Positions 11,324 through 37,838 of a stretch of DNA of 37,838 nucleotides are shown piece by piece (positions within the stretch are counted from its first letter, which is position 1; every line of letters begins with the position of its first letter). The DNA is taken from NCBI GenBank assembly GCA_025362015.1, contig JANYIO010000037.1, positions 1 to 37,838 of the forward strand, written 5' to 3'. The stretch is from Gammaproteobacteria bacterium (GTDB lineage Bacteria; Pseudomonadota; Gammaproteobacteria; Pseudomonadales; Cellvibrionaceae). A program made the position numbers and the translations under genes. The notes under the pieces are model-generated. The model did no database searches and was not told the DNA's origin. It saw only the letters and a list, made by a program, of their open reading frames with translations.

Positions 11324-11355
11324 ACTGTAAAATTTACGGAGAATAAATTGTTGTG

Positions 11356-13104: not shown

Positions 13105-13161
13105 ATTTTTGTAATGATAAAACACTTATTTTTTTAAACCATACCATTGAGAACACACGTT

Positions 13162-16741: not shown

Positions 16742-16825
16742 GTGGAGCTCCTTTAGCAAGTTTTAGAATAATAAAGTGTTTAAATATATGGTTTGTAAAA
16801 CTGTTAATAAAAATAATTTTGCTAT

Positions 16826-17633: not shown

Positions 17634-17721
17634 ATGCGCTATCTCAGTTGTGCAGGCCCTTGCTTTTAAGTGTCTGCTTAAATATTTAGTTTTTTGTGAA
17701 CAGCTCCATTGGGAACCCTTA

Positions 17722-18294
17722 ATGTACATCATTAGATTAGTGATACTTTTTACGCTCGGTGTTTATGCTTCCTATGGGGCGACGGCAGAAATCATTGAGC
17801 CAGGGCAGTACAAAATTAATCCCGGGGATGTGTTGTCGGTTTATGTATGGAATGAAGACAATGTCAGTCAAAAAGAGATATTGGTAAGGCCAGACGGACG
17901 TATTAGCATTCCTATTGTGGGTGAAGTCGTCGTTGCAGGGAAATCTATAGGGGTAGTCAAGGAGGAGCTATCGGCGCGGCTATCAACCATTTTAATCGAT
18001 AAGCCAGTAGTGACAGTTTCAGTTGTGCAGCTGAGTGGGAATACGGTATTCGTGTTGGGCAAAGTTGCGCGCCCTGGGCAATTTGTAATTCTTGGCAAAT
18101 TAGATGTTACCCAAGCCTTGGCCTTAGCTGGTGGTACTACTACTTTTGCCAAAGAAAGTGATATTAAAGTGCTACGTCGCGATCAAGATGGTACACAAAA
18201 AGCAATAAATTTTAATTATGGGAAAATAGAAAGCGGCAAGAATCTGGAAGATAACATCCTCATACAAAGTGGTGATGTGGTAATAGTGCCATGA
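17722..18294 (+). CDS. Short OPX/Wza-like polysaccharide export protein (XrtA-locus EpsE type)
   Basis: A 190-residue periplasmic or outer-membrane-associated polysaccharide export protein. ATG 17722 is chosen over GTG 17650 because it begins a normal signal peptide (MYIIRLVILFTLGVYAS) with GGGAA upstream. Residues ~30-105 form the Poly_export domain (YKINPGDVLSVYVWNED, then RPDGRISIPIVGEV), followed by an SLBB domain (VFVLGKVARPGQF, then VTQALALAGG) ending in GDVVIVP. It lacks both a lipobox cysteine and the C-terminal amphipathic helix that forms the outer-membrane pore in full-length Wza, so it probably works with another pore protein. The next gene, overlapping it by 4 bases, encodes a beta-barrel candidate. 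It is the first gene of the EPS operon. Confidence 0.9.
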   Translation: MYIIRLVILFTLGVYASYGATAEIIEPGQYKINPGDVLSVYVWNEDNVSQKEILVRPDGRISIPIVGEVVVAGKSIGVVKEELSARLSTILIDKPVVTVSVVQLSGNTVFVLGKVARPGQFVILGKLDVTQALALAGGTTTFAKESDIKVLRRDQDGTQKAINFNYGKIESGKNLEDNILIQSGDVVIVP

Positions 18295-19694
18295 TGATAA
18301 TGGGCACATCCAGTGGGTCTACTATACCGCTTGGTCTGTCAAAAATTGTAGAAATATTTTTTTCTAACTCATGTGCAATAGTCTTCGTGTTTTTGTTGAT
18401 AGCAGCAGTCACGCAGGCTGCTGAAAACCGTTTGGGCACTTCTCTAACTGCTCAACAAGACCTAGATGATAACTATTTGATGAGCCCTACAGATCAACAA
18501 ACGCTTTCAGGATTCTATTTGAAACCAAAAATCAGCTATCGTCATGATGATGGTTTTGAAACATTTTCGGCAGATTTGCAAGACTCCAGTGAGCGATATA
18601 ACCACTCTGAATACAATGTCGATAATCCAGCTTACGCAATCAATTATCAACGTGTAATGGAACGTGCGACATTAAGTTTTGGTTATGATGCTCTGCGCCA
18701 ATCAACCAGAATTTCTGAATTTAAAGATTCCGGCAATGCAGGCAATGGTTCAACTAATCAACAAACCAGCACTGCAACTGCGGCATGGCAATACCAACTT
18801 AGCCCCAGAAATTCAATTTCAATGAATGGTTCAATGCAAACCATTGGTTACGAAAGTGCTGCCTATGCAGATTTAAAAAACAATAGTCTTCAACTTGGCT
18901 GGCAAAGCGAATTAAGTGATCGGTTAAGTTTTTATACGGTGTTGTCAGAATCACAATACGAATCTAAATATGAAGCAGACTTTTACGTAGTGCCACAGCG
19001 TATTCAAAGCTACTTATTGTGTCCACCGAATTCATTATTAGTATCAGAAATTGCCTGTATTAGTGCTACATCTCCACGTGGTGATGCCGTTAATGCAACA
19101 ACATCTCCTGGCTTACAAGCGGGTTTGAAATGGAATATTCAAGAACAATTAAAGTTTTCTCTCGGTGCCGGGGTTACACATGTAAACACTGTGCAAACCA
19201 TAAAAATTCCTGAAGTATCAGTTCAATATGGCCCACCTATAGATCAGGAAGTTTTTTTTGGTGGGCAGCGATCCAGCCGCAGCGAATCAAAACTCGTGAC
19301 CACGAACATGAATCTCACGTATTTGTTAGAAACAACTACGTTCGGGCTTACCCTATCGCGAAAAATGCAGCCGAGTAGTACGGGTTCGTTATTGCGAATC
19401 GAAAGCCTGGATTTTTCAATGCGAAAATCACTGTCAGAAATTGATTGGATAGAGGCAGATTTTACGGCTGAAAAATTGTTAACTATAGATGAGAAAATTA
19501 TTGGTTCGTCATCCGTGAACAGAAATATTTTTCAAGGTACCCTAAAGTATGGGTATCGTTTTAGTAATACGTTGGTGGCTTATGCCTCCATGAGTTACAA
19601 GCGACAAGAAGCCAATGAAAATGACACGATTGTGGCAAATTCAATGTTGGGAGCTTTAGCAATAAGCTACACGCCGAAAGAATGGATGTGGTAG
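18291..19694 (+). CDS. EPS-locus outer-membrane beta-barrel protein (TIGR03016/BBP2-like)
   Basis: A 467-residue protein. It has an N-terminal membrane segment or signal (KIVEIFFSNSCAIVFVFLLI, cleavage near TQA-AE) followed by many alternating amphipathic strands with aromatic ends, such as LKPKISYRHDDGF, LSFGYDALRQSTR and YGYRFSNTLVAYASMSYKRQ. This is the pattern of an outer-membrane beta-barrel. The order OPX, this protein, GNVR matches the PEP-CTERM-associated EPS loci, in which a hypothetical barrel protein of this size (TIGR03016) is conserved. Its ATG overlaps the TGA of the exporter gene (ATGA), indicating translational coupling. Likely role: outer-membrane conduit or assembly partner for the polymer. 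Three closely spaced ATGs (18291, 18294, 18300) leave the exact start open. The C-terminus WMW is atypical for BAM substrates. Confidence 0.8.
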   Translation: MMIMGTSSGSTIPLGLSKIVEIFFSNSCAIVFVFLLIAAVTQAAENRLGTSLTAQQDLDDNYLMSPTDQQTLSGFYLKPKISYRHDDGFETFSADLQDSSERYNHSEYNVDNPAYAINYQRVMERATLSFGYDALRQSTRISEFKDSGNAGNGSTNQQTSTATAAWQYQLSPRNSISMNGSMQTIGYESAAYADLKNNSLQLGWQSELSDRLSFYTVLSESQYESKYEADFYVVPQRIQSYLLCPPNSLLVSEIACISATSPRGDAVNATTSPGLQAGLKWNIQEQLKFSLGAGVTHVNTVQTIKIPEVSVQYGPPIDQEVFFGGQRSSRSESKLVTTNMNLTYLLETTTFGLTLSRKMQPSSTGSLLRIESLDFSMRKSLSEIDWIEADFTAEKLLTIDEKIIGSSSVNRNIFQGTLKYGYRFSNTLVAYASMSYKRQEANENDTIVANSMLGALAISYTPKEWMW

Positions 19695-19726
19695 GTATAA
19701 AGAGAATGGACATGGTAGGTATAAAG
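19679..19726 (+). repeat. 24-bp tandem duplication at the EPS gene junction
   Basis: Two abutting 24-base units (19679-19702 and 19703-19726) agree at 22 of 24 positions; the match continues four bases beyond the second unit. The first copy contains the TAG stop of the barrel gene, and both contain AAAGAGAA, of which the second serves as ribosome-binding site for the next gene. This looks like a recent slippage duplication that moved the downstream start 24 bases away. Confidence 0.8.
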
Positions 19727-19736
19727 AGAAAATACA

Positions 19737-21491
19737 ATGAATATTGAAACTGATGAAGAGGTCGGTAAATCCCTGTCCGATTATTTGGCGTTAGCAAAAC
19801 GTCGCAAACGAATCATGGCCATTACTGCAGCTATTTTATTTGTAGTGGGGCTTCTTGCAGCTGTATTGTGGCCGGCAACCTATCGTTCTACCGCGGTTAT
19901 TCTGATTGAATCGCAAGATATTCCACCAGATTTAATTCGCTCTACTATTACTAGCTACGCGGTACAGCGCATTGAAGAAATTAAACAACGCATTATGACG
20001 ACTGGAAACATTATGTCAGTAGTGCAGCGTTTTGAGTTGTACAGTGATAGAGAACTTAATCGGCTTACTCGTTCAGAAATATCCAAAAAGTTTAGAGACA
20101 ATGTTTCGGTTGAGCCGATTAGTGCAGATGTTATAGATCCGCGCAGTGGTAACCCTACCAAAGCGGTTATTGCTTTTAAATTAGCGTTTGATGGCGATGA
20201 GCCACAAAAAGTGCACAAGGTTACCAACGAATTGATCACACTCTATTTAAATGAAAACTTAAGAGGGCGTACCGAACAGTCAAATAGTACATCGGATTTT
20301 TTATCCAGCGAATTAAAGTCACTGGACACATTATTGAAAGATCTTGAAAGTCAGCTTTCAACTTTTAAGGAAAAAAATAAAGGTAGCTTACCTGAGCTAA
20401 ATGGTTACAACTTAAATACACTGGATCGTAGTGAGCATGAACTCATTGAAATTAAAACGCGTATGCAAGATCTAGAAAGCCGAAAAATAGAATTGGCTTC
20501 GCAATTGGCACAATTGAATCCATCCGCGCCAACAATTTTGGCAGACGGAAAAGCGGTACTGAGTGATTCAGACAGGCTTAGAGCACTGCAATCTGATTAC
20601 CGGCGTAAAGCTGCTATTTATAGCCCTGACCATCCGGATTTGATGAGATTAAACCGTGAAATTAGTGTCTTGTTGCAAACACAAGGTAATAATAATGATG
20701 CTAAAGATGTTGGCAAGCAGCTCCAGGTTGCGCGCGATCAGTTGGCTCAAGCTCGCGAGAAATATACGGGTGAGCATCCGGAAATAAAAAAATTAACGGA
20801 AGTTGTCAGCAAGCTGGAAATAGAACTGCAGAACGCAAACAGAGGTACACCTGAGGTTATTCCCGATAACCCTTCCTATGTTTTATTGGATACACAACTT
20901 AAATCAATAGAAAGCGAAATTGCTTCGCTGGTTACAAAGTCTCAGCTCCTTAAAGAAAATATTAAGGAAAACGAACAATTGTTACTGAAGGCTCCTTCGG
21001 TGGAAAGGGACTATCAGGTTTTACTCAGAGATTATGACAATACACGTTTAAAGTATCGCGAGCTTAGCGAAAAACAAATGCAAGCAGAGTTGGGCAAAAG
21101 CCTTGAGCAAGAACGAAAAGGTGAGCGATTTACACTAATACAGCCACCTGAAATTCCTGAGGAACCGCTCAGCCCTAATAGAATTGCGATTGTATTTATA
21201 GCTCTTGTGTTAGCTATTGGTTTTGGTGTTGTGGCCGGTATTATTGCAGAAGCTTTAGATCCTAAAGTTTATGGTGAAAAATCTATCGAAGCTATTACAG
21301 GCATTTCTGCATTAGTGCTTGTCCCTTTTTATGAAATACCAGTAGATGATAGTGTACGTAAAAAATCTACATTATGGATCTTTGCAGGAATCGCCGTGGT
21401 AGTTCTTATTTTTATTGTACTCTTCAATTTTTTTGTCAAACCACTAGATGTAACCTGGTTTCTTCTGTTACATAAACTTGGCCTTAACTAA
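19737..21491 (+). CDS. Polysaccharide chain-length determinant, Wzz/GNVR family (XrtA type)
   Basis: A 584-residue inner-membrane polysaccharide co-polymerase that sets EPS chain length and couples synthesis to export. TM1 is at ~26-45 (IMAITAAILFVVGLLAAVLW), and the Wzz domain follows (YRSTAVILIESQDIPPDLIR). A long periplasmic coiled-coil spans ~190-450, and a GNVR-like segment (LLRDYDNTRLKYRELSEKQM) lies at ~425. TM2 is near 482-505 after PPEIPEEPLSPNR, and a third hydrophobic segment is at ~546-567. The extra C-terminal helix, with a short cytoplasmic part between the last two segments, is a feature of the exosortase-locus subgroup (TIGR03007). No kinase domain is fused; the next gene supplies it. 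AAAGAG lies 6-11 bases before ATG 19737. Confidence 0.92.
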   Translation: MNIETDEEVGKSLSDYLALAKRRKRIMAITAAILFVVGLLAAVLWPATYRSTAVILIESQDIPPDLIRSTITSYAVQRIEEIKQRIMTTGNIMSVVQRFELYSDRELNRLTRSEISKKFRDNVSVEPISADVIDPRSGNPTKAVIAFKLAFDGDEPQKVHKVTNELITLYLNENLRGRTEQSNSTSDFLSSELKSLDTLLKDLESQLSTFKEKNKGSLPELNGYNLNTLDRSEHELIEIKTRMQDLESRKIELASQLAQLNPSAPTILADGKAVLSDSDRLRALQSDYRRKAAIYSPDHPDLMRLNREISVLLQTQGNNNDAKDVGKQLQVARDQLAQAREKYTGEHPEIKKLTEVVSKLEIELQNANRGTPEVIPDNPSYVLLDTQLKSIESEIASLVTKSQLLKENIKENEQLLLKAPSVERDYQVLLRDYDNTRLKYRELSEKQMQAELGKSLEQERKGERFTLIQPPEIPEEPLSPNRIAIVFIALVLAIGFGVVAGIIAEALDPKVYGEKSIEAITGISALVLVPFYEIPVDDSVRKKSTLWIFAGIAVVVLIFIVLFNFFVKPLDVTWFLLLHKLGLN

Positions 21492-21509
21492 TAGAAAGAT
21501 AATTTTATT

Positions 21510-22334
21510 ATGGAACATATTCAGCGAGCCATCGAAAAAGCACGCAGTGAGCGTGAAGGTGATATAGGGCAGAAAACAGGATTAGAGAGTGAAAATAACT
21601 CTCAATTTTATGCTCAAAATGCAAACCATCGCAAAAAGTACAACGCATCTGTTGATGTTGAGTATTCAAAGACTCGACGCATAACTATTTCAGATACAGA
21701 GCTGAAAGAGCGAAATATATTTGCCGGTTTTGCCCATGACCCACGCTCAGAGCCATATCGTCAGTTGCGCTCGCAAGTGTTAAAAAAAATGCGTGCAGAA
21801 GGTTGGCAAACACTTGCCATTACCAGCCCAACTACCGGTAATGGGAAAACATTAACCGCACTTAACCTGGCCATAAGCTTGTCGCAAGAAGTCAACCAAA
21901 CAGTGTTGTTGGTCGATCTCGATTTAAGAAATCCCGGGATAGCGACGGCTTTAGGTGTTGAGTTGCTAGAGCATGGAATCGTTGATTGTGTAATGAATAA
22001 AATTCCACTGGAAGATATTTTAATTAATCCAGGTTACAACCGTCTTGTTATAGCGCCAGGTACGCCTCAAGGGCATCAAACATCTGAAATACTTTCATCA
22101 CCGCAAATGCAAACCATGCAAGCGGAGTTAAAAGGGCGTTATGCTGATCGTTTAATTATTTATGATTTACCGGCGCTACTCACTAGCGACGATGCTTTAG
22201 TGTTTGCGCCTCATGCGGATGCAGTGCTGTTGGTGGTAGAAGATGGTGGTGCGAGTGAGAGTGAATTAAAGCAAGCGATGAAACTTCTTGAAGGCACTCA
22301 TATTCTTGGTACTATTATTAACAAGCATCGTTAA
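21510..22334 (+). CDS. CpsD/CapB-like BY-kinase (EPS tyrosine autokinase)
   Basis: A 274-residue cytoplasmic ATPase of the bacterial tyrosine kinase family, partner of the chain-length protein encoded 18 bases upstream. Walker A is SPTTGNGKT (106-114), Walker A' is VLLVDLDLRNPG (132-143), and Walker B-like RLIIYDLPALL lies near residue 213. The RSEPYRQLRSQVLKKM segment before Walker A matches the oligomer-forming region of BY-kinases. There is no clear C-terminal tyrosine cluster (it ends in INKHR), so autophosphorylation at a Tyr-rich tail is doubtful. XrtA-locus kinases (TIGR03018) are of this short form. Likely controls polymerisation or export through ATP-dependent cycling. Confidence 0.9.
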   Translation: MEHIQRAIEKARSEREGDIGQKTGLESENNSQFYAQNANHRKKYNASVDVEYSKTRRITISDTELKERNIFAGFAHDPRSEPYRQLRSQVLKKMRAEGWQTLAITSPTTGNGKTLTALNLAISLSQEVNQTVLLVDLDLRNPGIATALGVELLEHGIVDCVMNKIPLEDILINPGYNRLVIAPGTPQGHQTSEILSSPQMQTMQAELKGRYADRLIIYDLPALLTSDDALVFAPHADAVLLVVEDGGASESELKQAMKLLEGTHILGTIINKHR

Positions 22335-22374
22335 AAGAAAGTAATGAATAGCAAAAAGCCACAGAGCTAAAAAT

Positions 22375-23229
22375 ATGTATTTGAAATATTACGGTTTCAC
22401 CAAAAAGCCATTTAATCTTATTCCGGACCCACAGTTCATGCACTTTTCGGAAAAGCATAAATTGGCCTACAGCTTGCTCGAATATGGAATCTATGAACAA
22501 ACAGGCTTAACTGTTATTACTGGCGAAATCGGTAGTGGTAAAACCACGCTATTACGCTATCTTCTGAAAAAAATTAATTATCAAGAAATTGTTGTTGGTC
22601 TTATTGATAACACTCATGAATCCCTGGGAGATTTACCCAGCTGGATAGCAACAGCGTTTAATATTGAATACAGCGGCCAGGATAAAGCAAAACTTTATCG
22701 CGAAATTCAGAATTATATCATCCAACAATATTCGGCGGGTAAGCGCGTGTTATTGATTGTGGATGAAGCCCAAAACATGAACGAAAATACACTCGAAGAA
22801 TTAAGATTATTAATGAATATTAATTCAGGAAGTGATTTGTTACTGCAAATTATATTGGTTGGCCAGCCTGAGCTGTTAACTACTTTACTTAAACCTAGCT
22901 TAACGCAACTGGCGCAACGCGTTTCTGTTGAGTATCACCTTGAGTCGCTATGTCTGGAAGAAACTCGCGTCTACATAAACCATAGAATTCACACCGCGCA
23001 ATGTGAACGTCTGGTTTTTGATGAGTTGGCGATAGAACAAATTTACAAATATTCGGGCGGTATACCACGATTAATCAATGTGCTTTGTGATAATGCCTTG
23101 GTCTATGGCTACGCACTGGACCGCGAGATTATTGGTGGTGACATTATTTTGGATGTTGTAAAGACCAGAAAGATTGGGGCTTTGAATAGAAATAATAGAA
23201 GTTCAGATAATGCGCCCTTGACTATATAG
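22375..23229 (+). CDS. XrtA-locus AAA ATPase, ExeA/GspA-like (TIGR03015 type)
   Basis: A 284-residue P-loop ATPase. It opens with YYGFTKKPFNLIPDPQF, the signature start of the ExeA/GspA-like family. Walker A is GEIGSGKTT (50-58), Walker B is VLLIVDEAQNM (125-135), a sensor-1-like LLQIILVGQPEL follows, and an arginine-rich lid has GGIPRLINVLCDNAL. It lacks the periplasmic peptidoglycan-binding extension of true ExeA, as is usual for the copy conserved in PEP-CTERM EPS loci. Its molecular role there is not known; an energising or regulatory function with the co-polymerase is an inference from conserved neighbourhood. It is the last gene of the recognisable core, and the next gene starts 131 bases on. 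Confidence 0.9.
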   Translation: MYLKYYGFTKKPFNLIPDPQFMHFSEKHKLAYSLLEYGIYEQTGLTVITGEIGSGKTTLLRYLLKKINYQEIVVGLIDNTHESLGDLPSWIATAFNIEYSGQDKAKLYREIQNYIIQQYSAGKRVLLIVDEAQNMNENTLEELRLLMNINSGSDLLLQIILVGQPELLTTLLKPSLTQLAQRVSVEYHLESLCLEETRVYINHRIHTAQCERLVFDELAIEQIYKYSGGIPRLINVLCDNALVYGYALDREIIGGDIILDVVKTRKIGALNRNNRSSDNAPLTI

Positions 23230-23360
23230 ATCTTAGCTAAAGGAAAGTTTTACCGGTTGTAATCTGTCCATAAGCTACTTTTGTTTTAATAATTAATTGT
23301 GCGATACGAGCCTACTACTTTCGGTAGGGAACTTTAAATTCTCCTGTAAATCGACTACAC

Positions 23361-25046
23361 ATGGCATTCAAATTCCCCGGTTGCATTATTATAGCGTTAT
23401 ATAGCTTTGCGGCATTATTTTGTAATGCTGATGCCATAAGTGGCAGCAGCGAATTGATATCACAATTAACTAACTCAGTGAAGCTAATTGCTCCGCTCGA
23501 AGAAAATCTAAAATTAAGTAACACTAAAGGTACTTTGCTCGGCTGGGTGCGTTTAGATAATTCGCAATTATCTCGTACTTTGATGAGTGCGCGTTGGGAT
23601 AAAAACATTAAAGAATCATCTTATTTGGTGTTGTCAGATGGTTGGTGGGAGCACACCAATGATAAAGGATTCTATTTTGTATTGGACAACAAACAGATTT
23701 CATTTTGCCATATTGATAACTTTACATTCCCTAGTAATCAATGGATGTTTGTGGCTGTGACTTGGGGACAGTCTAATCAACAAAGCTATTGTCAAATCTA
23801 TTTAAATGGTCAGTTCTATACGGAAAATAAAACAAATATAAAAATTATAAAAAATACTGAGCTTGCTTATCAATTTTCTGATGTTTTAACTGATGATCCT
23901 GAACATAGATTTTCTCAAGGAATGACCAGTGGTTTTTTCTACCATTCTTCAACATTGAGCTGGAAGGATATTCTTTCAATATACAATGCTACAAAAAGCA
24001 AATTTCAAGAACAAAAAATGTTGTCAAGTAAATCAAGTAGTAAAACTACAAATTTTAAAGATTTTAAGCAACGAATATTATTTGATGAGGATATTTATTG
24101 GGCGCTCAGCAAAACCAATACCGATGAGGTGTTAGCTGAAGTTGAGCGAAAAAATTTTAATGTGTTTATACCTTGTGTGTGGCATGGAAAAGGCGCTTAT
24201 TTCAAAAATAGTAAAGGAATTTATGATCCCCGTGTGAAATACAGAATTATAGCCGGGGATGACCCATTAACATATTTGTTATCTCAAGCAAAAAAGAAAA
24301 ATATAAAAATAATTCCGTGGTTTACCATTTCTTTGCAAGAGTCAAATGCTTTACCTGAGTTTGCCGATGCTGGCATTGGAGAGGCCTTTAATGTACACAA
24401 TCTACAGTTTCGAATTTACATATCCAGCTTAATTAACGAAGCAATTGTCGATTATCAATTGGAAGACGTAAATCTGGATTATATTCGTTCAATGGGTATT
24501 TGCGTTACTGAGAAATGTAAGCAAGATTTTAAACTTAAATATGATAAAGACTTATCAACAGAATACTCGCATACGCAAGATACTTATATTTTTTCAAAAT
24601 TTATATCTGCGTGGAACAATGATGCTGTTACTGATATTTTGAAAAGAGTACGCGCTAATATTCCCTCTAACGGCTCAGTCAAAATCAGTGTGGATGCAGT
24701 ACCTTTGAATAAAGAATTGCAGTTTCAAGGGCAGGAAAGTATAGATTGGTTGAATGACGGGTTAATCGATACAATATTTTTAATGAGTTACCAGCGAAAT
24801 GTTGAAATCAATAAAATGGTAAGCATCGCCAATAAAGTGAAGCGTGGCCAATTGATCCCAATTATTTCTACTTATGACAAAATTGCATCAACTGTTGTCG
24901 CAAGAGTTCCTGCGGTCTTAGGGGAAATTATCGATCAGATAGGCAGCAAATTTAGCAATGATGCAATTGCTATTTATCATAGAAAAAGCCTAACAAATGA
25001 TCAAATTCTCTATTTGAATCATCAGCCTGAAGAAAACATAAAATGA
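23361..25046 (+). CDS. Secreted LamG-like plus GHL10-like TIM-barrel glycosidase candidate
   Basis: A 561-residue exported protein with a signal peptide (CIIIALYSFAALFC, cleavage near ADA-IS). Residues ~40-215 resemble a concanavalin/LamG lectin fold (GTLLGWVRLD, NQWMFVAVTWG, YCQIYLNGQFY). A Ser/Lys linker follows, then a C-terminal ~320-residue domain with FDEDIYW (~240), NVFIPCVWHGKGAYF, KKKNIKIIPWFTI, NLDYIRSMG (~371) and ISVDAVP (~443). The Asp-rich strand ends and overall order resemble the hypothetical glycosyl hydrolase GHL10/PF02638 TIM barrels, with the Asp of NLDYIR as candidate catalytic residue. A paralogue without the lectin part lies at 27762. The start is poorly supported by a Shine-Dalgarno. 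The stop overlaps the next start (ATGA), tying it to the polymerase. Likely trims or binds the EPS in the periplasm or outside; activity not proven. Confidence 0.78.
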   Translation: MAFKFPGCIIIALYSFAALFCNADAISGSSELISQLTNSVKLIAPLEENLKLSNTKGTLLGWVRLDNSQLSRTLMSARWDKNIKESSYLVLSDGWWEHTNDKGFYFVLDNKQISFCHIDNFTFPSNQWMFVAVTWGQSNQQSYCQIYLNGQFYTENKTNIKIIKNTELAYQFSDVLTDDPEHRFSQGMTSGFFYHSSTLSWKDILSIYNATKSKFQEQKMLSSKSSSKTTNFKDFKQRILFDEDIYWALSKTNTDEVLAEVERKNFNVFIPCVWHGKGAYFKNSKGIYDPRVKYRIIAGDDPLTYLLSQAKKKNIKIIPWFTISLQESNALPEFADAGIGEAFNVHNLQFRIYISSLINEAIVDYQLEDVNLDYIRSMGICVTEKCKQDFKLKYDKDLSTEYSHTQDTYIFSKFISAWNNDAVTDILKRVRANIPSNGSVKISVDAVPLNKELQFQGQESIDWLNDGLIDTIFLMSYQRNVEINKMVSIANKVKRGQLIPIISTYDKIASTVVARVPAVLGEIIDQIGSKFSNDAIAIYHRKSLTNDQILYLNHQPEENIK

Positions 25047-27672: not shown

Positions 27673-27761
27673 TGGATTTAATCATTCATAACATGTATTA
27701 CTTCAATTACCATTCATGATGGTTAATGGGTAGTTTGTAATGTAATCAATGGAAGTTAAAT

Positions 27762-28931: not shown

Positions 28932-28947
28932 TTTGTCGCCTAAAATC

Positions 28948-29139
28948 TTAATTCTTTAAACTAAAATATGTGTAAACGATTTGAATACTTATCCCCGCAA
29001 TGCAATTAAGTAATGTCAGGTCATTAAATAGTAATACTTCATGAGTAGCTTTGCTGGGTATTCGCTCTAAATAAGTTTTCAGTAAGATCGTTATAACCAA
29101 TCCTCCAAAGCACCTGCTTTGAGAGAAGTGAATTTTATT
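28948..29139 (-). pseudogene. Coding-like minus-strand fragment, possible membrane-protein remnant
   Basis: A 63-codon minus-strand frame without a usable ATG fills most of the gap before the 29160 gene. Its translation looks protein-like: GGLVITILLKTYLERIPSKA, then a hydrophobic stretch LTLLNCIAGISIQIVYTYF and a final SLKN. The first part recalls the last helix and short tail of membrane acyltransferases, and an intact antisense acyltransferase lies further right (32451). It overlaps the leader of the 29160 gene, so it is unlikely to be functional. It may be chance; only a database search can decide. Confidence 0.3.
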
Positions 29140-29159
29140 CTATCTAAAGGAGTATCAAT

Positions 29160-30326: not shown

Positions 30327-30390
30327 ATAGTAGGAAAATATTTGTATTGTGCCTTATTATCTATTCGGCACAAAATATTTAATAGTTATT

Positions 30391-31284
30391 ATGTCAATTA
30401 CAAAAAAATACTTCGTTCTGTTATTTTTTTTTACATTTCTCATTTTTTTAGTTGTATGTGGTGGCATAAGTTGGAAGCTTTGGGAAAATAATTGTGCGAC
30501 GCAATACCCTGCGCAACTCAGCATTGAGCAGAGTTTGAATCAGGGTATTGCTTGGTTAGAAACTAATCGCGCCAATATCCTCGCCGAAGAAAATCCCATG
30601 TTGTGGTGGATGATAAAACAAAGTGCAGAATTAACGCAGAGCACCACGTTGTTAAGTTTGTATAGTGAATACAAGCAGCGTTACCTGGATTCCAATCCAA
30701 GAAATGTGTGGGCGTATCTCTTTAATGCCAATGCCAAGGTATTCATTGATCCGCTTCAGCTAGAGAATATGCCCGATTACAACCTGCTTTTCCTCTACGC
30801 TTCCAGCTGCGACTCGTTGTTAGCGCAAGAACCGCTAGTTATTGAACAGCTGTCCCCCAATTTTTGTAACACGCGAATGCTATCGCCAACCTGTGTAACT
30901 CATCAACTTATGGGGTTGAGAATTGCACAGATTCATCAGTGCGGCGATATTGGGAAAATGAATCAAGTTAGTAGTCAATTACAAGAACGGATATTAAATC
31001 AACTCTTTTGGGATTTTAGGGTTGTCGATGTGTATTTGCAGCGAGTATGGGTAATAGTTGAATCGGGTGCTGGTAACAAGTTAAAACCTGTCTGGATTCA
31101 CCGTGTTTTATCAATGCAGAATCCCGATGGCGGTTGGCCAGGATTTGAATCGCTTATATCCATATCCAATCAGCGCTCATTGGGTTTTTCCTCAAAAGGA
31201 ATCGACATAAGTACGAGCGAATCTAACTTTCACACCACTGCACAAGGTGTGCTTTTAATGAGCCTTTTACGTGCAGGGCGATAG
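30391..31284 (+). CDS. Membrane-anchored protein with terpene-cyclase/toroid-like C-terminus
   Basis: A 297-residue protein with one strong N-terminal membrane helix (YFVLLFFFTFLIFLVVCGGI) and a soluble remainder that is helical and Cys-bearing. Near the C-terminus, VLSMQNPDGGWPGFESL and later FHTTAQGVLLMSLLRAG recall the QW-type repeats (Q-x-x-DGGW) of alpha/alpha-toroid proteins such as squalene cyclases and some glycan-processing enzymes. It lacks enough repeats to be a full cyclase and has no DxDD motif that I can see. The start is uncertain: ATG 30391 gives the cleanest anchor but has no Shine-Dalgarno; GTG 30349 has AGGA 13 bases upstream. It is flanked by a beta-helix gene and a VPLPA gene, so a role in EPS processing is plausible but unproven. 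Confidence 0.6.
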   Translation: MSITKKYFVLLFFFTFLIFLVVCGGISWKLWENNCATQYPAQLSIEQSLNQGIAWLETNRANILAEENPMLWWMIKQSAELTQSTTLLSLYSEYKQRYLDSNPRNVWAYLFNANAKVFIDPLQLENMPDYNLLFLYASSCDSLLAQEPLVIEQLSPNFCNTRMLSPTCVTHQLMGLRIAQIHQCGDIGKMNQVSSQLQERILNQLFWDFRVVDVYLQRVWVIVESGAGNKLKPVWIHRVLSMQNPDGGWPGFESLISISNQRSLGFSSKGIDISTSESNFHTTAQGVLLMSLLRAGR

Positions 31285-31362
31285 CACATATCGAGATGCA
31301 AAGGATGATTTTATTCTAACCTTTTGTATCAAACTACTGTAAAAATAAATTGGAGATATTGC

Positions 31363-32226
31363 ATGAAAATCAAAAAATATTTAATAGGAATTGCCATATC
31401 ATTCTCGGTAATAGATCATAGTTATGCTACAACTATAGATTTCAATGATCTACCGCAACAAATTATTACCCGTGAATTACAGGAGGAAAGTATTGGTGAA
31501 GGTTTTTTATTGGGGGGTAAACCGTTAGAAGATCGTGTTAACTTTACCAGTTTCCTGGATTCGCCTAATTTCAGTGTCTTTGATTTAACAGGTATAGGAA
31601 GTGAATATACTAAACCTTTCAATAATTTTTTAATCCGTTACAATTTGGATGCTTCTTCCAATATTAGTTCTACCAACGCTAGCGGTATTATCTCAAGGAC
31701 ATCATTGAGTGGTAGCGTGTGGTTGGAGGCTGCAAAAACGTTGGATCTAAATAATGATAACCTTGTCAAGGTGTATAGAGATAAAGTTAAAAATTTAGAT
31801 TCGATGCCTTCGTGGCCTTTAATATTTTCTTTTACAGCTGCTGCAGCGAGAAGTGGCTCTGGAAATGTATCAGCACCAGATTTTTTCGGCGTGTACCCAG
31901 GTTTTTCTACACAAAGTGGTAATGTAAGTGTTAACGGAGTATTTACTTGTATAGAGTGTGGTTTCGATATCACTTTGAATTTAATTGGTCTTAGTTATGA
32001 TGGTAATGGGCAATCCTCCTTTAACTTATCAGATAACCGGGCATCGCTCATGACTTTTCACGATTTTGTAGATGGCGGTAGTAATTATACTAATATTAAT
32101 CAGACCGAAAGTTTAAATGTTCAGCCAGTCCCGTTACCCTCTAGCATAGGTATGTTTTCAGCGGCTTTGTTGCTGTTGTTATTTCGTGTTAAACGTTTTA
32201 ATAGTATTGTTGCAAAATTGGTTTAG
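31363..32226 (+). CDS. Secreted protein with degenerate VPLPS sorting tail
   Basis: A 287-residue exported protein. ATG 31363 is chosen because GGAG lies 7 bases upstream and a signal peptide begins there (MKIKKYLIGIAISFSVI, cleavage near SYA-TT). The mature N-terminus TTIDFNDLPQQIITRELQ is typical of PEP-CTERM proteins of the 'FDDL' type. A CIECG pair occurs at about residue 195. The tail starts at ~256 with VPLPSSIGMF, then a hydrophobic AALLLLLF and basic RVKR, followed by ten more residues. The usual AA-x-W after VPLP is replaced by SSIG, so recognition by the exosortase may be weaker. Function unknown; probably a matrix or surface protein of this EPS system. Confidence 0.75.
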   Translation: MKIKKYLIGIAISFSVIDHSYATTIDFNDLPQQIITRELQEESIGEGFLLGGKPLEDRVNFTSFLDSPNFSVFDLTGIGSEYTKPFNNFLIRYNLDASSNISSTNASGIISRTSLSGSVWLEAAKTLDLNNDNLVKVYRDKVKNLDSMPSWPLIFSFTAAAARSGSGNVSAPDFFGVYPGFSTQSGNVSVNGVFTCIECGFDITLNLIGLSYDGNGQSSFNLSDNRASLMTFHDFVDGGSNYTNINQTESLNVQPVPLPSSIGMFSAALLLLLFRVKRFNSIVAKLV

Positions 32227-32263
32227 TAATTCTCAAAAGAATAACAGCTCAAAGTTACTAGCT

Positions 32264-32380
32264 GCCTAGTTCTAGTAGATGACAATGATGTAACGATTTA
32301 ATGAAGATAAAATTAAAAAGGAAACTTTATGCGAAATACTTTTCACTCCAGGAAAGTACTACAGTCTTAAAAACATTATA
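32264..32380 (+). repeat. Diverged direct repeat, copy A (pairs with 33641-33754)
   Basis: About 115 bases that recur in the same orientation on the other side of the acyltransferase gene. The first 50 bases agree at 41 of 50 positions (shared GATGACAATGA, CGATTT-ATGAAGATA), similarity continues more loosely, and both copies end in AAAACATTATA. Copy A holds a good AAAAAGGAAACTTTATG start-like sequence leading to only 13 codons before a stop, suggesting the leader of a lost gene. Confidence 0.7.
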
Positions 32381-32415
32381 TGAGTAAAAATTGGTTGTGC
32401 AGTCTCTTATCTAGT

Positions 32416-32455
32416 TGGTTCTACCCCCCACAAGTATTTTTATTGTGGTTCTACC
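32416..32455 (+). repeat. 10-bp direct repeat TGGTTCTACC with 30-bp period
   Basis: TGGTTCTACC occurs at 32416-32425 and 32446-32455; the second copy covers the acyltransferase stop codon. Between them CCACAA (32428-32433) and TTGTGG (32443-32448) can pair, a weak hairpin at the 3' end of the minus-strand transcript. It may mark a small duplication at the end of the gene. Confidence 0.4.
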
Positions 32456-33536
32456 TGTCTGCAACGATTTGTACATGACTTTTTTGTGACGCATGTTTTT
32501 TTGGTAATAAAAGAAATCCAATAATTTTTTGTTTTTTTGCGATTTCCCATAAGATAATAGAAAACCCCAATCCGACAGTAAAACTTACTATACAATTTAA
32601 AAAAGGGTAATTAATTAAATGTGATAAAATCTTAAATGCCTTCCCTTGTGCCGAGCTATGAAATATTAGAATAAATAATGAGCCAGAACCTAAGTAGGAG
32701 AGCATCTTCTTGCCATATTTATACCGGTTTAAAAGTGCAGCTATACTAATTGTGATGTAGATACCCGTTATGGCTTGTATGGATGAAATGACTGAATTAC
32801 CGTAACTTCTCATATTTAAATCAATAGTTTCATCAAAATAGTAATGCATAGATGTAAAGATAACTAGTGCAACGAAAAAAATATTTAGATTAAAATTAAA
32901 GTTCTTTATTTTATCGTGCAGCATATAGCCCGCTAAAATAAAGGTAGATGTAATTAACGTAATATCTAAGCCCCAAGGTAGCCCTGGTAAGCTATTAAAT
33001 GTAACTGGGGCATTGATAAAAGTGGTTGGGAGCCAAAATAGACTAATAGCACTAAGGCCAATTAAGAACATCAGAAGCACAATTAGTATTAGATATAAAA
33101 TTGGCATCCCTTTCGTCAGTTTCAAAACAAAAAATGAAAAACTTAATGAAATAAACAAGTGCGATAAAAACCACAATGGCGGCCAAGGTATTGTAATTCC
33201 ATTCCCCCATAAAACACCTAATATGTACTGAAAAGTTGGTGCCTCCACCAAATTCATAGCTATTGATAAAATTAGCTTTAAAACTCCCAAGAAAATTAGA
33301 ACCACAAAATAAGGTTTTAATAAACTATCTGCTTTGGACCATAGAAAAGATCTGAGATCATCAGATTCTCTTAAAAAAATCCCTGATAAAAAGAAGAATA
33401 ACGGTACATGAAACGAAAATATCACTCTAGATAATTCAGCATTATCTGGGGAGCCAACCCAGCTATTGTGCCCAAGCACTACCAAAATTATTCCCAAGCC
33501 TTTCACGATGTCAATAGTAACATTGCGACATATCAT
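32451..33536 (-). CDS. Membrane acyltransferase (Acyl_transf_3, fucose 4-O-acetylase-like)
   Basis: A 361-residue polytopic membrane protein. The N-terminus TIDIVKGLGIILVVLGHN carries the conserved His of the acyltransferase-3 family, followed by FSFHVPLFFFLSGIFLRES with the second conserved FH-x-P-x-FF motif. About ten helices follow, including GSLFILIFHSSAQGKAF. These enzymes transfer acetyl or other acyl groups to sugars during polysaccharide synthesis. It is the only accessory gene on the minus strand and is bracketed by two copies of a ~115-bp repeat, so it may have been inserted into, or left behind by rearrangement of, the locus. GGAG lies about 11 bases before ATG 33536, a slightly long spacing. 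Likely substrate: the EPS repeat unit; inference. Confidence 0.88.
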   Translation of the reverse strand: MICRNVTIDIVKGLGIILVVLGHNSWVGSPDNAELSRVIFSFHVPLFFFLSGIFLRESDDLRSFLWSKADSLLKPYFVVLIFLGVLKLILSIAMNLVEAPTFQYILGVLWGNGITIPWPPLWFLSHLFISLSFSFFVLKLTKGMPILYLILIVLLMFLIGLSAISLFWLPTTFINAPVTFNSLPGLPWGLDITLITSTFILAGYMLHDKIKNFNFNLNIFFVALVIFTSMHYYFDETIDLNMRSYGNSVISSIQAITGIYITISIAALLNRYKYGKKMLSYLGSGSLFILIFHSSAQGKAFKILSHLINYPFLNCIVSFTVGLGFSIILWEIAKKQKIIGFLLLPKKHASQKSHVQIVADR

Positions 33537-33935
33537 TATATTGGTAACTCCATGATGTATATAATATTCATTTATAAATTTTTATTTTATATTTAATTAT
33601 CATAAAAATCGCAGCTTATAAATACAAGCTACGCCTCCAAACTTAGTTCTAAAGGATGACAATGACGTGACGATTTGATGAAGATAGAATTAAAGGAAAT
33701 TTTATCGATAAATACTTGTTGCGCCAGGTAGGCACGCATACTTAAAACATTATATTTATGAAATCTTTATGAAATAATATCTAAGTATACATATAGTGCG
33801 CACTAACTCATTACGATTGGAAATTGTGTTGTAAAAACTCAATGAGTGGCTAGTCCAAGTCTGAGTGCGTTTAATTACACAGCAATTCTCAAATGCTTTG
33901 CTGAATATCCTTCATATGAATACGGAGATTTTAGT
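33537..33935. other. Intergenic region with repeat copy B, no gene seen
   Basis: This 399-base A/T-rich gap between the divergent acyltransferase and beta-helix genes holds copy B of the diverged repeat (33641-33754), a short tandem TATGAAAT at about 33757-33775, and the GGAG (33924-33927) that fixes the start of the following gene. No coding frame is convincing; an upstream in-frame extension from 33846 lacks a ribosome-binding site. Confidence 0.55.
33641..33754 (+). repeat. Diverged direct repeat, copy B (pairs with 32264-32380)
   Basis: Same orientation as copy A, sharing TTAGTTCT, GATGACAATGA, CGATTT-ATGAAGATA, AATTAAA-GGAAA and the terminal AAAACATTATA. The ATG present after the ribosome-binding-like stretch in copy A reads ATC here. 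It lies 182 bases before the beta-helix gene at 33936, so it could be part of that gene's leader or promoter. Confidence 0.7.
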
Positions 33936-34922
33936 ATGTCGTTAAAATATTTTTCAATCATTTTTATGTCATCAATTGGTTTTTGTGCAGAGGTATTTGC
34001 TGTCAATGATCCCGTTTGCAGCCAGCCACAATTGCAAACATCAGCGCTACAATCTGGGAAAATTAGTGTTAAAGATGCTGGTGCTGTAGGTAATGGCACA
34101 ATTGACGACACAAATAGTATTCAAATTGCAATTGATTGTGCATTTAATAATGGTGCAGGCTATACGGTTTATTTCCCTCCAGGTGCGTACAAAATTACTA
34201 GCGGACTTAATGTTCATCGGGATGTTGATCTTCTCGGAGAAGGTATTGGCTGGGCGTCGGTAATTTATCCTATCAATTTGGCAAGTGGTACGGCTGCAAT
34301 TTATCTTGATGGAACTAAGCAAAATGGAGGTTGGGCATTCAAAAATACACTTAAGGGTTTAAACATTGATATGAAAGACTCGGTAGGTAAAATTGCGATT
34401 CAAATCAATAATGCTTACAACATTCATATTGCAGATACCTATATACGTGCAAATATCACCGGCACCACACAAACTTCAGCAGTTGCCGTTGTCGATATCA
34501 ATACTTCAAATCACGTCACTTTGGATCACATAGTAATTTATGGTGAACAAGGAATAGGTACTGGTTTGAAAATAAATGATTCTTGGGTTACAGCAATTAA
34601 CCCTGATGTTGAAGGCCATGCCGCTAATATAATTGTTTCTGAAACCGCTATTGGTAAAGGAAAGTTTAATATGTTTGGCGGTTACATGGAGCGGTTTGGC
34701 CAATATGGCATTAGATTTAATAATACTGGCTACAACCACATTGATGGTGTTGTTATTAAAATTCCAAATAATTCTCCCCATGGCGTATCGTTTAATAATA
34801 GTACCAATAACTTATTAACTGGTGTTTCACTTTTGTGCGCAACTGGCACTAATTGCACTGCAATATGGGGTTCTAGTGGCAATACTATTACCAATACTTT
34901 GATTCAGGGAAATACGCTGTAA
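33936..34922 (+). CDS. Secreted right-handed beta-helix protein (Pectate_lyase_3-like)
   Basis: A 328-residue protein. ATG 33936 has GGAG 8 bases upstream and opens a Sec signal (MSLKYFSIIFMSSIGFCAEV, cleavage near VFA-VN); the longer frame from 33846 has no such support. The domain begins ISVKDAGAVGNGTIDDTNSI, the Pectate_lyase_3 N-terminal motif, followed by VYFPPGAYKI and VDLLGEGIGWASV. Beta-helix coils with stacked Asn follow (NHVTLDHIVIYG, YNHIDGVVIKI, GNTITNTLIQGN). Paired Cys residues (CATGTNC) occur near the end. It shares layout with the protein encoded at 29160 but uses Sec rather than Tat and is shorter. Likely a lyase, hydrolase, epimerase or depolymerase acting on the EPS; exact chemistry unknown. 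Confidence 0.8.
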   Translation: MSLKYFSIIFMSSIGFCAEVFAVNDPVCSQPQLQTSALQSGKISVKDAGAVGNGTIDDTNSIQIAIDCAFNNGAGYTVYFPPGAYKITSGLNVHRDVDLLGEGIGWASVIYPINLASGTAAIYLDGTKQNGGWAFKNTLKGLNIDMKDSVGKIAIQINNAYNIHIADTYIRANITGTTQTSAVAVVDINTSNHVTLDHIVIYGEQGIGTGLKINDSWVTAINPDVEGHAANIIVSETAIGKGKFNMFGGYMERFGQYGIRFNNTGYNHIDGVVIKIPNNSPHGVSFNNSTNNLLTGVSLLCATGTNCTAIWGSSGNTITNTLIQGNTL

Positions 34923-34977
34923 ATTTAAAACTAAACTTAAGTGTGCCATTATGAATTTTCTTTACGTTCGATTCTGT

Positions 34978-34988
34978 CATACGTTTTG
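34978..34988 (+). promoter_or_regulatory. Third copy of the CATACGTTTTG element, upstream of a VPLPA gene
   Basis: CATACGTTTTG here is identical to 17452-17462 in the EPS/RHH divergent region, and a partial TTACGTTCG precedes it by 13 bases (34962). It lies 57 bases before the VPLPA gene at 35045, within promoter range. A shared operator would link this distal gene to the same regulator. One 11-base match could be chance in 38 kb of A/T-rich DNA, but the position supports it. Confidence 0.35.
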
Positions 34989-35044
34989 TTTTATTTTTAA
35001 TTGCCACTTATTTAATATATATCAACTTATGAAAGGAAAATAAG

Positions 35045-35671
35045 ATGAAATTTTTTAAATATGTTTTGTTTGTAATTTCATTAAGCTCGGCTATGGAGTT
35101 ATCTGCTTCCGTAGTTGATATTCAAGACAAGCCTCGTAGTGATAGTAGTTGGCATACTTCATACAACCTTTATAACGCGTTCAACTGGGGAGAGTCGAGA
35201 AAAGAATTCAGTCTTGATAATATGGTTTCTGGAGACTATGTAATTAATTTTGATTTTTTAAACCCTCATATAGACACAACACCTTTTCCTTTTAATTGGA
35301 CTAGTTCTTTGTCATTAACGACTGATCATAATGATGGTTTTATTTCTTTGCATGAGATTAAAAGCTGTTACAATCTTCAATGCAATTCTTATCAAAGTAT
35401 AGGATTTGAGTTTGACAAAAATGCACTTGTCAATGTTGTAAATTCTGTGTTGCTCAGTGCCAATAAAATATCAGGATTATTTGCGGTGCATTTGGATTCA
35501 GATGTAAAGTATTTTCTTTTTGTCAATGATTATGACTATAGGTTTGCTAATTCTAGTCCTTTTACAATATCTATTAATTCAATTGCTCCATCCCCCGTAC
35601 CTTTACCCGCTGCAGTTTGGATGTTTGTTTCAGCAATAGTTGGATTTTTTTGTATTGCGCACAAATGTTAA
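35045..35671 (+). CDS. Secreted protein with VPLPA sorting tail lacking a basic cluster
   Basis: A 208-residue exported protein with a signal peptide (FKYVLFVISLSSAMELSAS, cleavage near SAS-VV) and a beta-rich mature domain of ~155 residues with two Cys (CYNLQC). A SPVPLPAAVWMF motif starts at about residue 184, followed by a hydrophobic stretch (VSAIVGFFCIA) and a very short end, HKC. The Arg/Lys cluster that normally retains the tail for exosortase cleavage is reduced to one Lys. A frameshift near the end could have removed it, or the short tail may be natural. AAAGGAAAATAAG precedes ATG 35045. Mature function unknown. Confidence 0.78.
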   Translation: MKFFKYVLFVISLSSAMELSASVVDIQDKPRSDSSWHTSYNLYNAFNWGESRKEFSLDNMVSGDYVINFDFLNPHIDTTPFPFNWTSSLSLTTDHNDGFISLHEIKSCYNLQCNSYQSIGFEFDKNALVNVVNSVLLSANKISGLFAVHLDSDVKYFLFVNDYDYRFANSSPFTISINSIAPSPVPLPAAVWMFVSAIVGFFCIAHKC

Positions 35672-35707
35672 AATTTAAAACTAATTTTATTTTAAAAACA
35701 CAGGGAT

Positions 35708-35865
35708 GTGCAATTCTTTATTCTTATAGTTATTTCTGCATTAGGTGCCGGCTTTTTTGTTCGTTACAGACAACTGGGCTTTTTAAAAATATTTTCAGTT
35801 TTAGCGTAATAATTGCTGTTTTCGTTGCCATAGCCTGTTTGTCTAAAAACCAAAATAGATATTAA
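35708..35865 (+). pseudogene. Possible frameshifted small membrane protein
   Basis: From GTG 35708 a 33-codon frame encodes a hydrophobic peptide (FFILIVISALGAGFFVRY then RQLGFLKIFSVLA) and stops at 35809. The next frame continues hydrophobic with SVIIAVFVAIACLS and ends SKNQNRY at 35865. A one-base indel in the T5A5 run (35780-35789) would join them into a two-helix protein of about 50 residues. The GTG has AGGG only two bases upstream, so translation is doubtful. It may be a decayed small gene. Confidence 0.3.
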
Positions 35866-35867
35866 TT

Positions 35868-35882
35868 TGGTACGGAAATTTC
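35868..35882 (+). promoter_or_regulatory. Sigma-54-like promoter candidate before the 35956 gene
   Basis: TGGTACGGAAATTTC matches the -24/-12 consensus TGGCACG-N4-TTGC at 9 of 11 specified bases, with correct spacing. The -12 G is T here, which weakens it. It lies 74-88 bases upstream of ATG 35956. RpoN control of PEP-CTERM genes is known in some exosortase bacteria, which gives some prior support. Confidence 0.25.
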
Positions 35883-35955
35883 GGCATTATAAATGTGTTA
35901 GTTGCAGCAGAGCGCATTAACACTAAATTTATTTAATAGAGAAAGGAGTACAGAT

Positions 35956-37437
35956 ATGCGTTTAAAATTCGGATTTTTTATTTCAGGTATTTTTTCGCTG
36001 GCAGTTACAACTTCTGCACATGCAGCTGTTTCGCCTAAAGAGATATTTGCATTGTCATGGTCTACACCAACTTATAGCAGCGGCAGTGGTGCACACATTT
36101 ATCCAATGACTAGGTTTGGTGTAGGTGCAGGTTATGATACGCCAACAACTACAGCACTTTCTGCTTCACAGTCTCCAATTGGGCGTCGTGGATTGTTGCT
36201 TTTATATAGTCAGCGTAGCATTCTCGGTAATACAGGTGACACATGTATAGACCCAGCAACCAACTCGGCCACACAATCTCAGTGCCCATATTTTAATAAT
36301 GGTATTAGTGCAACTCAATCAGGTTTTCAGAGTTTTTTTGCAGACTATAAAGCGGCGGGTGGCTCTGTTGACTTTTTAGTACTTGATTCTGAAATTGGCC
36401 TTTCAAACTGGCAATTGGGTACATCAACTCAGCCTTATGATGCAATTGAGAGCGATGCAAGATATGGCACTAATACCTATAATTCTTTAATTAATATGGC
36501 TACAGCTGCCGGCTTACCGTCACTGACCTTTCAGCCGCTTAGCAAAATTGGTACAAATTATTCAAATCGTGATGAAATTGGGGTGTGGAATGAATTAATG
36601 GGTGAGCGAATTAACGACGCAGTAATTTCGTCGGTTGCTGGCCCGTTGTTAAGCTTTTTCCCGGCTGCAAAGATGTCTGACTACGATCAATTTTGGCATC
36701 ACCCAAGCGTTCCAATGTATGACCCGAATGGCTGGCCAGTGGCTCAATTTGGAACTGGGGAGGCCGTTGGTACTCATGCGGCACCCAGCCTATATGGAGA
36801 CATTGGCAATTTTCATTACGGGTCGCTCAACCCAACTGGACAAGAGTATGCGCCGACAAGTTTTAACGGCTTTAGGATGGATGTAAATAAAATGCGTGGT
36901 GTTGTATTGGGTACAAGTACTCAACTTAACATTGCAATAGCAAATGTAAAAACGTCTCCCTGGGTTGCTTATCGTGGATTTCATGGTCCAACATCCACAT
37001 ACAGCAATAGCAATTATTATCAAGAATCAGTCATTCATGCCGTACTTGCTGGTGCCGATCATCTCCTGTTTTGGAACCCAACAGCGCAAGATAAAGCATC
37101 GACAGATGATCAAACCCTTAGCGATGTTCTAGCGGAAATGAATGGTTTAGTTGGATACAGTGATCGTAAAACGCTTGTCACTGGGCTTGCTAGCTGGACA
37201 TCAAAATTCATTATCACCACAACTTATGCGAACGGGAAAAAAGTATCTCGTCTTACAGCATCGGAGGGTGACCAAATTATATGTACAACTAATGCACAAA
37301 AACTTTTGAGTTGTAATATGGGGTCTAGTGGTGTCGTTAATTTTCCTTTAGGTGTTAAAACCCAGTACGGAAAACTTAATGTATCTTCGGCTGGTATTTG
37401 GGTTGTACAACCGAATACCGCAATGAATCCGTATTAG
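35956..37437 (+). CDS. Secreted protein of unrecognised family, glycosidase-like hints
   Basis: A 493-residue exported protein. ATG 35956 is preferred because AAAGGAG lies 7 bases upstream and a signal peptide starts there (FGFFISGIFSLAVTT, cleavage near AHA-AV). The mature part is soluble with few Cys (one CIDPATNSATQSQC pair). VDFLVLDSEIG near residue 155 has clustered acidic residues at a strand end, and the later GADHLLFWNP with alternating beta/alpha segments suggests a TIM-barrel enzyme. The last ~80 residues (ITTTYANGKKVSRLTA, then ISTAG-like VSSAGIWVV) look like a beta-sandwich appendage common in glycoside hydrolases. No sorting tail is present. I cannot assign a family. Position at the end of the locus suggests polymer processing. 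Confidence 0.7.
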   Translation: MRLKFGFFISGIFSLAVTTSAHAAVSPKEIFALSWSTPTYSSGSGAHIYPMTRFGVGAGYDTPTTTALSASQSPIGRRGLLLLYSQRSILGNTGDTCIDPATNSATQSQCPYFNNGISATQSGFQSFFADYKAAGGSVDFLVLDSEIGLSNWQLGTSTQPYDAIESDARYGTNTYNSLINMATAAGLPSLTFQPLSKIGTNYSNRDEIGVWNELMGERINDAVISSVAGPLLSFFPAAKMSDYDQFWHHPSVPMYDPNGWPVAQFGTGEAVGTHAAPSLYGDIGNFHYGSLNPTGQEYAPTSFNGFRMDVNKMRGVVLGTSTQLNIAIANVKTSPWVAYRGFHGPTSTYSNSNYYQESVIHAVLAGADHLLFWNPTAQDKASTDDQTLSDVLAEMNGLVGYSDRKTLVTGLASWTSKFIITTTYANGKKVSRLTASEGDQIICTTNAQKLLSCNMGSSGVVNFPLGVKTQYGKLNVSSAGIWVVQPNTAMNPY

Positions 37438-37838
37438 TTTTTGAAATGCTAGTCATGCAGGGACGCGTGTACTTCTGACTTTTAACCTCGCCCCAACAAC
37501 TACACTGTTCCTCAATTTTTTAAGCCTCTTTGGAATTAATAAGGCCGTGAGTTTTACAAAATTTAACGCTCGATAATACGGATTGATTAAATTGCCAAAC
37601 CAGGTGCTGCAATTGCTCTAGCGTTTGGCGCGGACATTGAGTTTAACCCTTTAACGCCAGATCCTAGTACAAATTACACTACCTTCATCTCCATTCTATT
37701 TAATGAGATCTTTGCACGATCAGCATCTAAAAATGTAGATTAGCGCATCGTGCGATTAAAAAATAAAATAGCCAGAGTTTTCCACAAAAAAGTCTCAAAA
37801 ATGCATTTACAGCGAGATATCTCTCACTATTTCATTTT
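37438..37838. other. Right-edge region without an intact gene
   Basis: This 401-base stretch holds one coding-like fragment (37591-37743) and a nested dyad (GCACGAT at 37714-37720 against ATCGTGC at 37747-37753, with ATCTA/TAGAT inside). No clear terminator follows the 35956 gene. I see no other gene, but a gene could begin past the edge. Confidence 0.5.
37591..37743 (+). pseudogene. Coding-like fragment, possible gene remnant
   Basis: Fifty codons run from just after a stop (TAA 37588-37590) to TAG at 37741, with no start codon near the beginning. The translation is protein-like: IAKPGAAIALAFGADIEFNP, then TPDPSTNYTTF and NEIFARSASKNVD. Composition, including Pro, Asp and Gly placement, is unlike random A/T-rich frames here. 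It may be the 3' remnant of a deleted gene. Family not recognised. Confidence 0.3.

Follow-up and report, generated by a model that had tools for sequence, protein, structure and literature searches.

Probable export half of an XrtD-type exopolysaccharide locus at a contig end in a Cellvibrionaceae draft genome

Export genes and the contig end

The stretch analysed here, hereafter the window, is 37,838 bp long and is an entire contig (C146, GenBank JANYIO010000037.1) of the 4.5 Mb, 328-contig draft genome of a gammaproteobacterium of the family Cellvibrionaceae (GCA_025362015.1). It carries an exopolysaccharide (EPS) export locus, which we compare with loci of the exosortase XrtD (VPLPA-CTERM type). 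Five forward-strand genes form its core, namely an outer-membrane polysaccharide export (OPX) protein (17722–18294; PF02563 72.7 bits, SLBB), a predicted outer-membrane barrel-like protein (18291–19694), a GNVR polysaccharide co-polymerase (19737–21491), a BY-kinase (tyrosine autokinase, 21510–22334) and an ExeA-like ATPase of exosortase EPS loci (22375–23229). The OPX start at 17722 is an internal ATG of an open reading frame (ORF) spanning 17650–18294 and lies ahead of a signal-peptide-like N-terminus. The barrel-like protein has no family match and no relative was found in the genome contigs searched, but it is 20–25% identical to the gene at the same position in eight of the 11 XrtD loci annotated below. 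Behind a GHL10 protein, a Wzy_C ligase/polymerase (25043–26269; PF04932 49.2 bits) and a Wzx-type MOP flippase (26266–27672; PF01943, PF13440) follow on the same strand, and by family match the window thus holds a Wzx/Wzy-dependent set of flippase, polymerase, co-polymerase and OPX protein.

An earlier note on this DNA had recognised the five-gene core with Wzx and Wzy after it, and had remarked on the lack of synthesis and sorting genes. Both observations held. Profile scans with Pfam and NCBIfam (E up to 0.1) of the 16 ORFs spanning 17650–37437 gave no match to a glycosyltransferase, exosortase, polysaccharide deacetylase or FemAB protein; an antisense 111-aa ORF (31638–31973) and ORFs under 100 aa lay outside the scan. 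A very divergent enzyme is formally possible, because five of the 16 ORFs (18291–19694, 30349–31284, 31324–32226, 35045–35671 and 35902–37437) either match no family or match one only below cut-off. The absence carries little weight, since the window is one whole contig of a draft assembly and ends in a multi-copy insertion sequence (IS).

The contig stops 15.5 kb past the start of the ATPase gene, at the terminus of a DDE-transposase IS element (37705–37838, no strand assigned). Its final 134 bp are matched at 99–100% identity over 134–141 bp on four other contigs of the genome (C144, C8, C58 and C28), and shorter stretches match exactly on C111 and C241. Because these terminal bases recur on other contigs and the C58 copy runs on into a DDE_Tnp_1 transposase, C146 stops at a repeated IS.

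A second cluster with XrtD

Searching the genome with the 8TM_EpsH profile detected two exosortases, on contigs C302 and C304. The C302 protein is an XrtD (TIGR04152 565.1 bits, cut-off 400) and falls below the XrtA model (TIGR03109 164.5 bits against a cut-off of 208); it is the only XrtD above cut-off in the genome. C302 also encodes a WecA/MraY-type transferase near XrtD, three GT4 glycosyltransferases plus a WecG/TagA protein, PrsT (318.8 bits, cut-off 312.2) and VPLPA-tailed proteins. Directly ahead of XrtD lie Gmd (593.8 bits, cut-off 415) and Fcl (483.6 bits, just under the cut-off of 500). A second cluster therefore exists, as the earlier note had predicted, and has an exosortase, a WecA-type transferase and glycosyltransferases.

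In the window, too, four secreted proteins carry a VPLP(A) tail motif, although the best TIGR03370 score among them is 23.2 bits against a cut-off of 25.35. Two lie ahead of the core, at 15245–15973 on the forward strand (tail VPLPAALWLFISALTGGYFSARKKR; 13.8 bits) and at 16178–16759 on the reverse strand (VPLPA-type tail; the 23.2-bit match). Two lie after it on the forward strand, at 31324–32226 (VPLP tail VPLPSSIGMFSAALLLLLFRVKRF; PEP-CTERM matches below cut-off) and 35045–35671 (VPLPA-type tail VPLPAAVWMFVSAIVGFFCIAHK; 14.4 bits). A crude VPLP-tail filter retained five of 45 ORFs on C146 and C302 against one of 213 ORFs on 14 other contigs or regions of the genome, a non-random comparison set chosen for exosortase, EPS, ATPase or IS matches. 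The filter missed two window tails that are visible by eye, and the single positive outside the two contigs is presumably RodA-like.

The earlier note had assigned the core to the XrtA type. On that view the window would hold an XrtA locus from which glycosyltransferases and exosortase have been lost, and in its favour the top NCBIfam match of each of four core proteins is an XrtA-system model. None of the four reaches the XrtA equivalog cut-off, however (OPX, TIGR03027 120.8 against 180; GNVR, TIGR03007 233.5 against 278.85; kinase, TIGR03018 166 against 230.65; ATPase, TIGR03015 294.4 against 324.5). Moreover, a separate XrtA-type locus is present on C278 (L053), comprising EpsB_2, OPX, GNVR, kinase, PrsT-like, GT4 and XrtA deacetylase genes, and passes TIGR03013, TIGR03027, TIGR03007 and TIGR03006. 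Its PrsT-like protein (290.4 against 312.2) and its kinase (165.3 bits) stay below cut-off, so the kinase score does not discriminate between the two types. The TIGR03013 priming transferase and TIGR03006 deacetylase of C278 are both absent from the 16 scanned window ORFs, the tailed window proteins carry VPLP(A) motifs and the exosortase on C302 is of the XrtD type. We consider the XrtA assignment hardly credible.

An OPX protein, GNVR co-polymerase, tyrosine kinase and PrsT are features in common with XrtA/PEP-CTERM loci, and according to Haft et al. 2006 (PMC1569441) epsH homologs lie nearly always among EPS genes, with group 1 glycosyltransferases, deacetylases, chain-length proteins and PF02397 proteins found near an epsH homolog and/or implicated in EPS synthesis. 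The difference is that C278 pairs an EpsB_2 (PF02397) priming transferase with an XrtA deacetylase, whereas XrtD on C302 stands beside a WecA-type transferase. Further PF02397 priming transferases occur on C267 and C174. The C304 exosortase reaches no named-type cut-off, matching only the general signature TIGR04178 and 8TM_EpsH (106.4, cut-off 105.55); C304 has a repeated stretch in common with the end of C278.

In a sample of 21 genomes of the genus, both halves are private to this genome, the ATPase at E ≤ 1e-55 and XrtD at E ≤ 1e-60 each being detected in this one alone, which fits joint acquisition. Absence from the 20 other members, like a contamination estimate of 1.96% for the bin, would also suit a window contig that is a contaminant. 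This is very improbable, as the IS that closes the window recurs at 99–100% in other contigs of the bin, some with housekeeping-like genes, and the window has a G+C content (0.389) similar to that of C302 (0.39–0.42) and of other contigs of the genome (0.375–0.454).

XrtD loci in relatives and the gap between the contigs

We searched 293 genomes of the order, this one included, and called XrtD above the TIGR04152 cut-off in 33. An ATPase relative, defined as a match to the window ATPase at E ≤ 1e-55 (a threshold that also admits some paralogs of 37–41% identity), was present in 25 of these 33. In half of the other XrtD genomes (16 of 32) the two genes share a contig at a spacing of 1.0–31.0 kb start to start, with XrtD downstream of a same-strand ATPase in 14 of the 16 (exceptions G285 and G240) and the spacing greater than the 15.5 kb left on C146 in nine. 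The window ATPase is 43–56% identical to 15 of the 16 ATPases on XrtD contigs (37% for the remaining one, in G240), and its best matches in the 20 same-genus genomes reach 34–38%; by pairwise identity, not a tree, it is closer to XrtD-linked ATPases than to the rest of its genus.

Eleven linked loci were annotated gene by gene. Seven (G120, G219, G206, G227, G101, G064 and G050) have the order core, variable block, XrtD-WecA-PrsT, allowing for calling gaps (no OPX in G050, no barrel in G219 and G050, gmd and WecA each in two frames in G206). Two of them, G206 and G227, hold the core, variable block, gmd-fcl and XrtD-WecA-PrsT all on one contig; Gmd-Fcl lie directly ahead of XrtD in G206, and one extra gene separates fcl from XrtD in G227. 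G254 and G107 show core, block and XrtD-PrsT with no WecA match, and the gene order deviates in G085 and G285. Relatives of the C302 GT4 or WecG proteins were found by BLAST between core and XrtD in nine of the 11 loci (exceptions G120 and G085). Tailed genes also recur, as VPLP types ahead of the core in G254, G085 and G107 and as VPVP or VPLP types past PrsT in G227 and G050, hence near one locus end in five of the 11, and the window and C302 carry VPLP tails at the corresponding places.

The window resembles XrtD loci of its order in its OPX-barrel-GNVR-kinase-ATPase succession and in the variable block behind it, which includes flippase and polymerase-like genes. Glycoside-hydrolase-like secreted proteins occur in some blocks of relatives, as they do here. 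Among nine large block proteins, a sample that left out one G219 secreted protein lying across two loci, three have glycoside-hydrolase-type domains above the Pfam cut-off (CBM4_9 and GH10 in G206, GHL15 in G101 and G050), one (G064) has a sub-threshold GH123 match and five have none, so putative carbohydrate-active secreted proteins are not peculiar to the window. Differences are that the parts known here are spread over two contigs, and that the block, as far as it is sequenced, lacks a glycosyltransferase and contains two GHL10 proteins and two beta-helix proteins. Identities of the ATPase and XrtD to the C146 and C302 copies covary over ten of the 11 loci (Spearman 0.85; no ATPase ORF was called in G085), but shared genome ancestry alone could explain this and we do not use it as support.

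We conclude that the window is quite likely the export half of an XrtD-type EPS locus and that C302 probably forms the opposite end of this acquired locus. That synthesis and sorting genes seem to be lacking is mostly due to the contig ending in an IS, given that in related loci XrtD can lie as far as 31 kb from the ATPase. C146 and C302 would then lie together on the chromosome. Placing C302 directly after C146 would give an ATPase-to-XrtD spacing of about 25.7 kb plus any gap, within the range of relatives, which is arithmetic and not evidence of joining.

Several observations weigh against this conclusion. Among six contigs of this genome, no end overlap joins C146 to C302, the sole overlap being a 25-mer common to C304 and C278 within their repeated stretch. 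The left end of the IS closes the window and its right end was found on C40; followed to its far side, the element leads, besides C58, to four contigs (C215, C108, C40 and C323) that carry other genes and no recognisable EPS cluster (genes on C40 look like gidA and the operon for ATP synthase). C302 has no IS sequence at its left end, and this end finds no match in the genome other than itself. A nucleotidase-like gene opens C302 and has relatives in six of 17 same-genus genomes searched (E ≤ 1e-100, 55–80% identity); this gene alone was common to the C302 left flank and 36 kb around the nucleotidase of the same-genus genome G003. In the order, the ATPase match and XrtD are on separate contigs in eight of 32 genomes, and eight of 33 XrtD genomes lack an ATPase match at the cut-off. 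The latter include G319, G241 and G029, the only other XrtD genomes of the same family, two of them single-contig assemblies, and therefore XrtD and the core are not strictly paired.

The same observations favour a truly split locus, in which core, Wzx/Wzy and tailoring genes sit in one place and act in trans with XrtD and the synthesis genes at another chromosomal site. There is no assembly link between the contigs, C302 is not among the far-side IS contigs found, its flank has a gene common to some genus members, and XrtD without a close ATPase relative in three family members implies that core and XrtD are not bound together; in G266, furthermore, the two genes are on separate contigs, and the XrtD contig extends about 200 kb upstream of XrtD. 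Dispersed EPS/PEP-CTERM genes are already known, because in Aquincola prsT and epsB2, both needed for floc formation, map to loci apart from the large EPS cluster (PMC9850573). Against a split stand the 16 genomes with both genes within 31 kb on one contig, the nature of the eight different-contig cases, all drafts of 50–660 contigs, and the position of the IS, which cuts the window contig exactly on the side where XrtD is expected. We regard a split locus as rather unlikely. Its more specific form, a jointly acquired XrtD system divided into an export-and-tailoring island with its own hydrolases and lyases and a synthesis-and-sorting island acting in trans, is unlikely. Of the split export-and-tailoring locus proposed in the earlier note, the second cluster stands, but the lack of genes that had suggested it is explained by the contig end at the IS.

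Two further observations concern linkage in other genomes. In G050, two genes score above the XrtD cut-off, one each on contigs C116 and C43 (L083 and L042), and the C43 copy has an ATPase 16.5 kb upstream. Among the matches listed (80 named loci, indicative), L133 (a Thiogranum metagenome-assembled genome) and L159 (Povalibacter uvarum) have the core and no XrtD match in 10.8 kb downstream, in a scan whose ORF calling drops genes in G+C-rich contigs.

Putative tailoring genes, side observations and the predicted pathway

Between and beyond the genes already described, the window encodes a LamG-like plus GHL10 putative glycoside hydrolase (23361–25046; PF02638, PF13385), a second GHL10 putative glycoside hydrolase (27762–28931; PF02638 84.8 bits) and two pectate-lyase-like beta-helix proteins (29160–30326, PF12708 49.4 bits; 33846–34922, PF12708 58 bits), all on the forward strand, and an acyltransferase of family 3 on the reverse strand (32451–33536; PF01757 100 bits). 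Two other forward-strand genes have no assigned family, a protein with a long N-terminal helix (30349–31284; no Pfam match and one NCBIfam match below cut-off) and a secreted protein without Pfam or NCBIfam match (35902–37437); alignment-free structure predictions of both were unusable (mean predicted local distance difference test scores 41.4 and 31.0, respectively). Sigma-54 type sites in the window numbered three, with 3.25 expected.

At the start of the contig (2–14844 region), a 3,727-aa ORF that is open at the contig end is filamentous-adhesin-like by appearance. After it come a POTRA-containing ShlB/FhaC-type transporter (11353–13104) and a Porin_5 protein (13147–14844), and the group probably represents a two-partner secretion system next to the EPS locus. 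On C302, an Arm-DNA-bind_3 integrase fragment (L003:18731-19129), 1.2 kb past the VPLPA gene after PrsT, fits mobile acquisition. Another region of this contig (L004:1668-3781) encodes a small exosortase-family protein (TIGR04300 XrtM 110.9 bits, cut-off 125; TIGR04177 XrtH 67.6, cut-off 86), whose gene is divergent from that of a subtilisin-like protease ending in IPTLPAWALVLSILGF, a tail that we take to resemble the IPTL type. The two are possibly a further sorting pair of this genome.

If the window and C302 are one locus, family assignments suggest that the WecA-type transferase of C302 would start an undecaprenyl-linked unit, which WecG and the GT4 enzymes of the same contig would extend, with GDP-fucose supplied by Gmd and Fcl. 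Wzx would flip the unit and Wzy polymerise it, GNVR, BY-kinase and ATPase would control its length, and export would proceed through OPX and the barrel-like protein. The acyltransferase and the secreted GHL10 and beta-helix proteins may modify or trim the polymer, and XrtD would cleave the VPLPA-tailed proteins of both contigs and pass them on to the matrix or the cell surface.

On this reading, the window locus is an ordinary XrtD-type EPS locus cut by an assembly break, and it illustrates that the end of a draft contig can mimic a missing function. The architecture of XrtD loci may be little described in open-licence literature, and the relatives provide a usable order for recognising them: export core, variable block, XrtD, WecA-type transferase and PrsT, with the ATPase and XrtD up to 31 kb apart.

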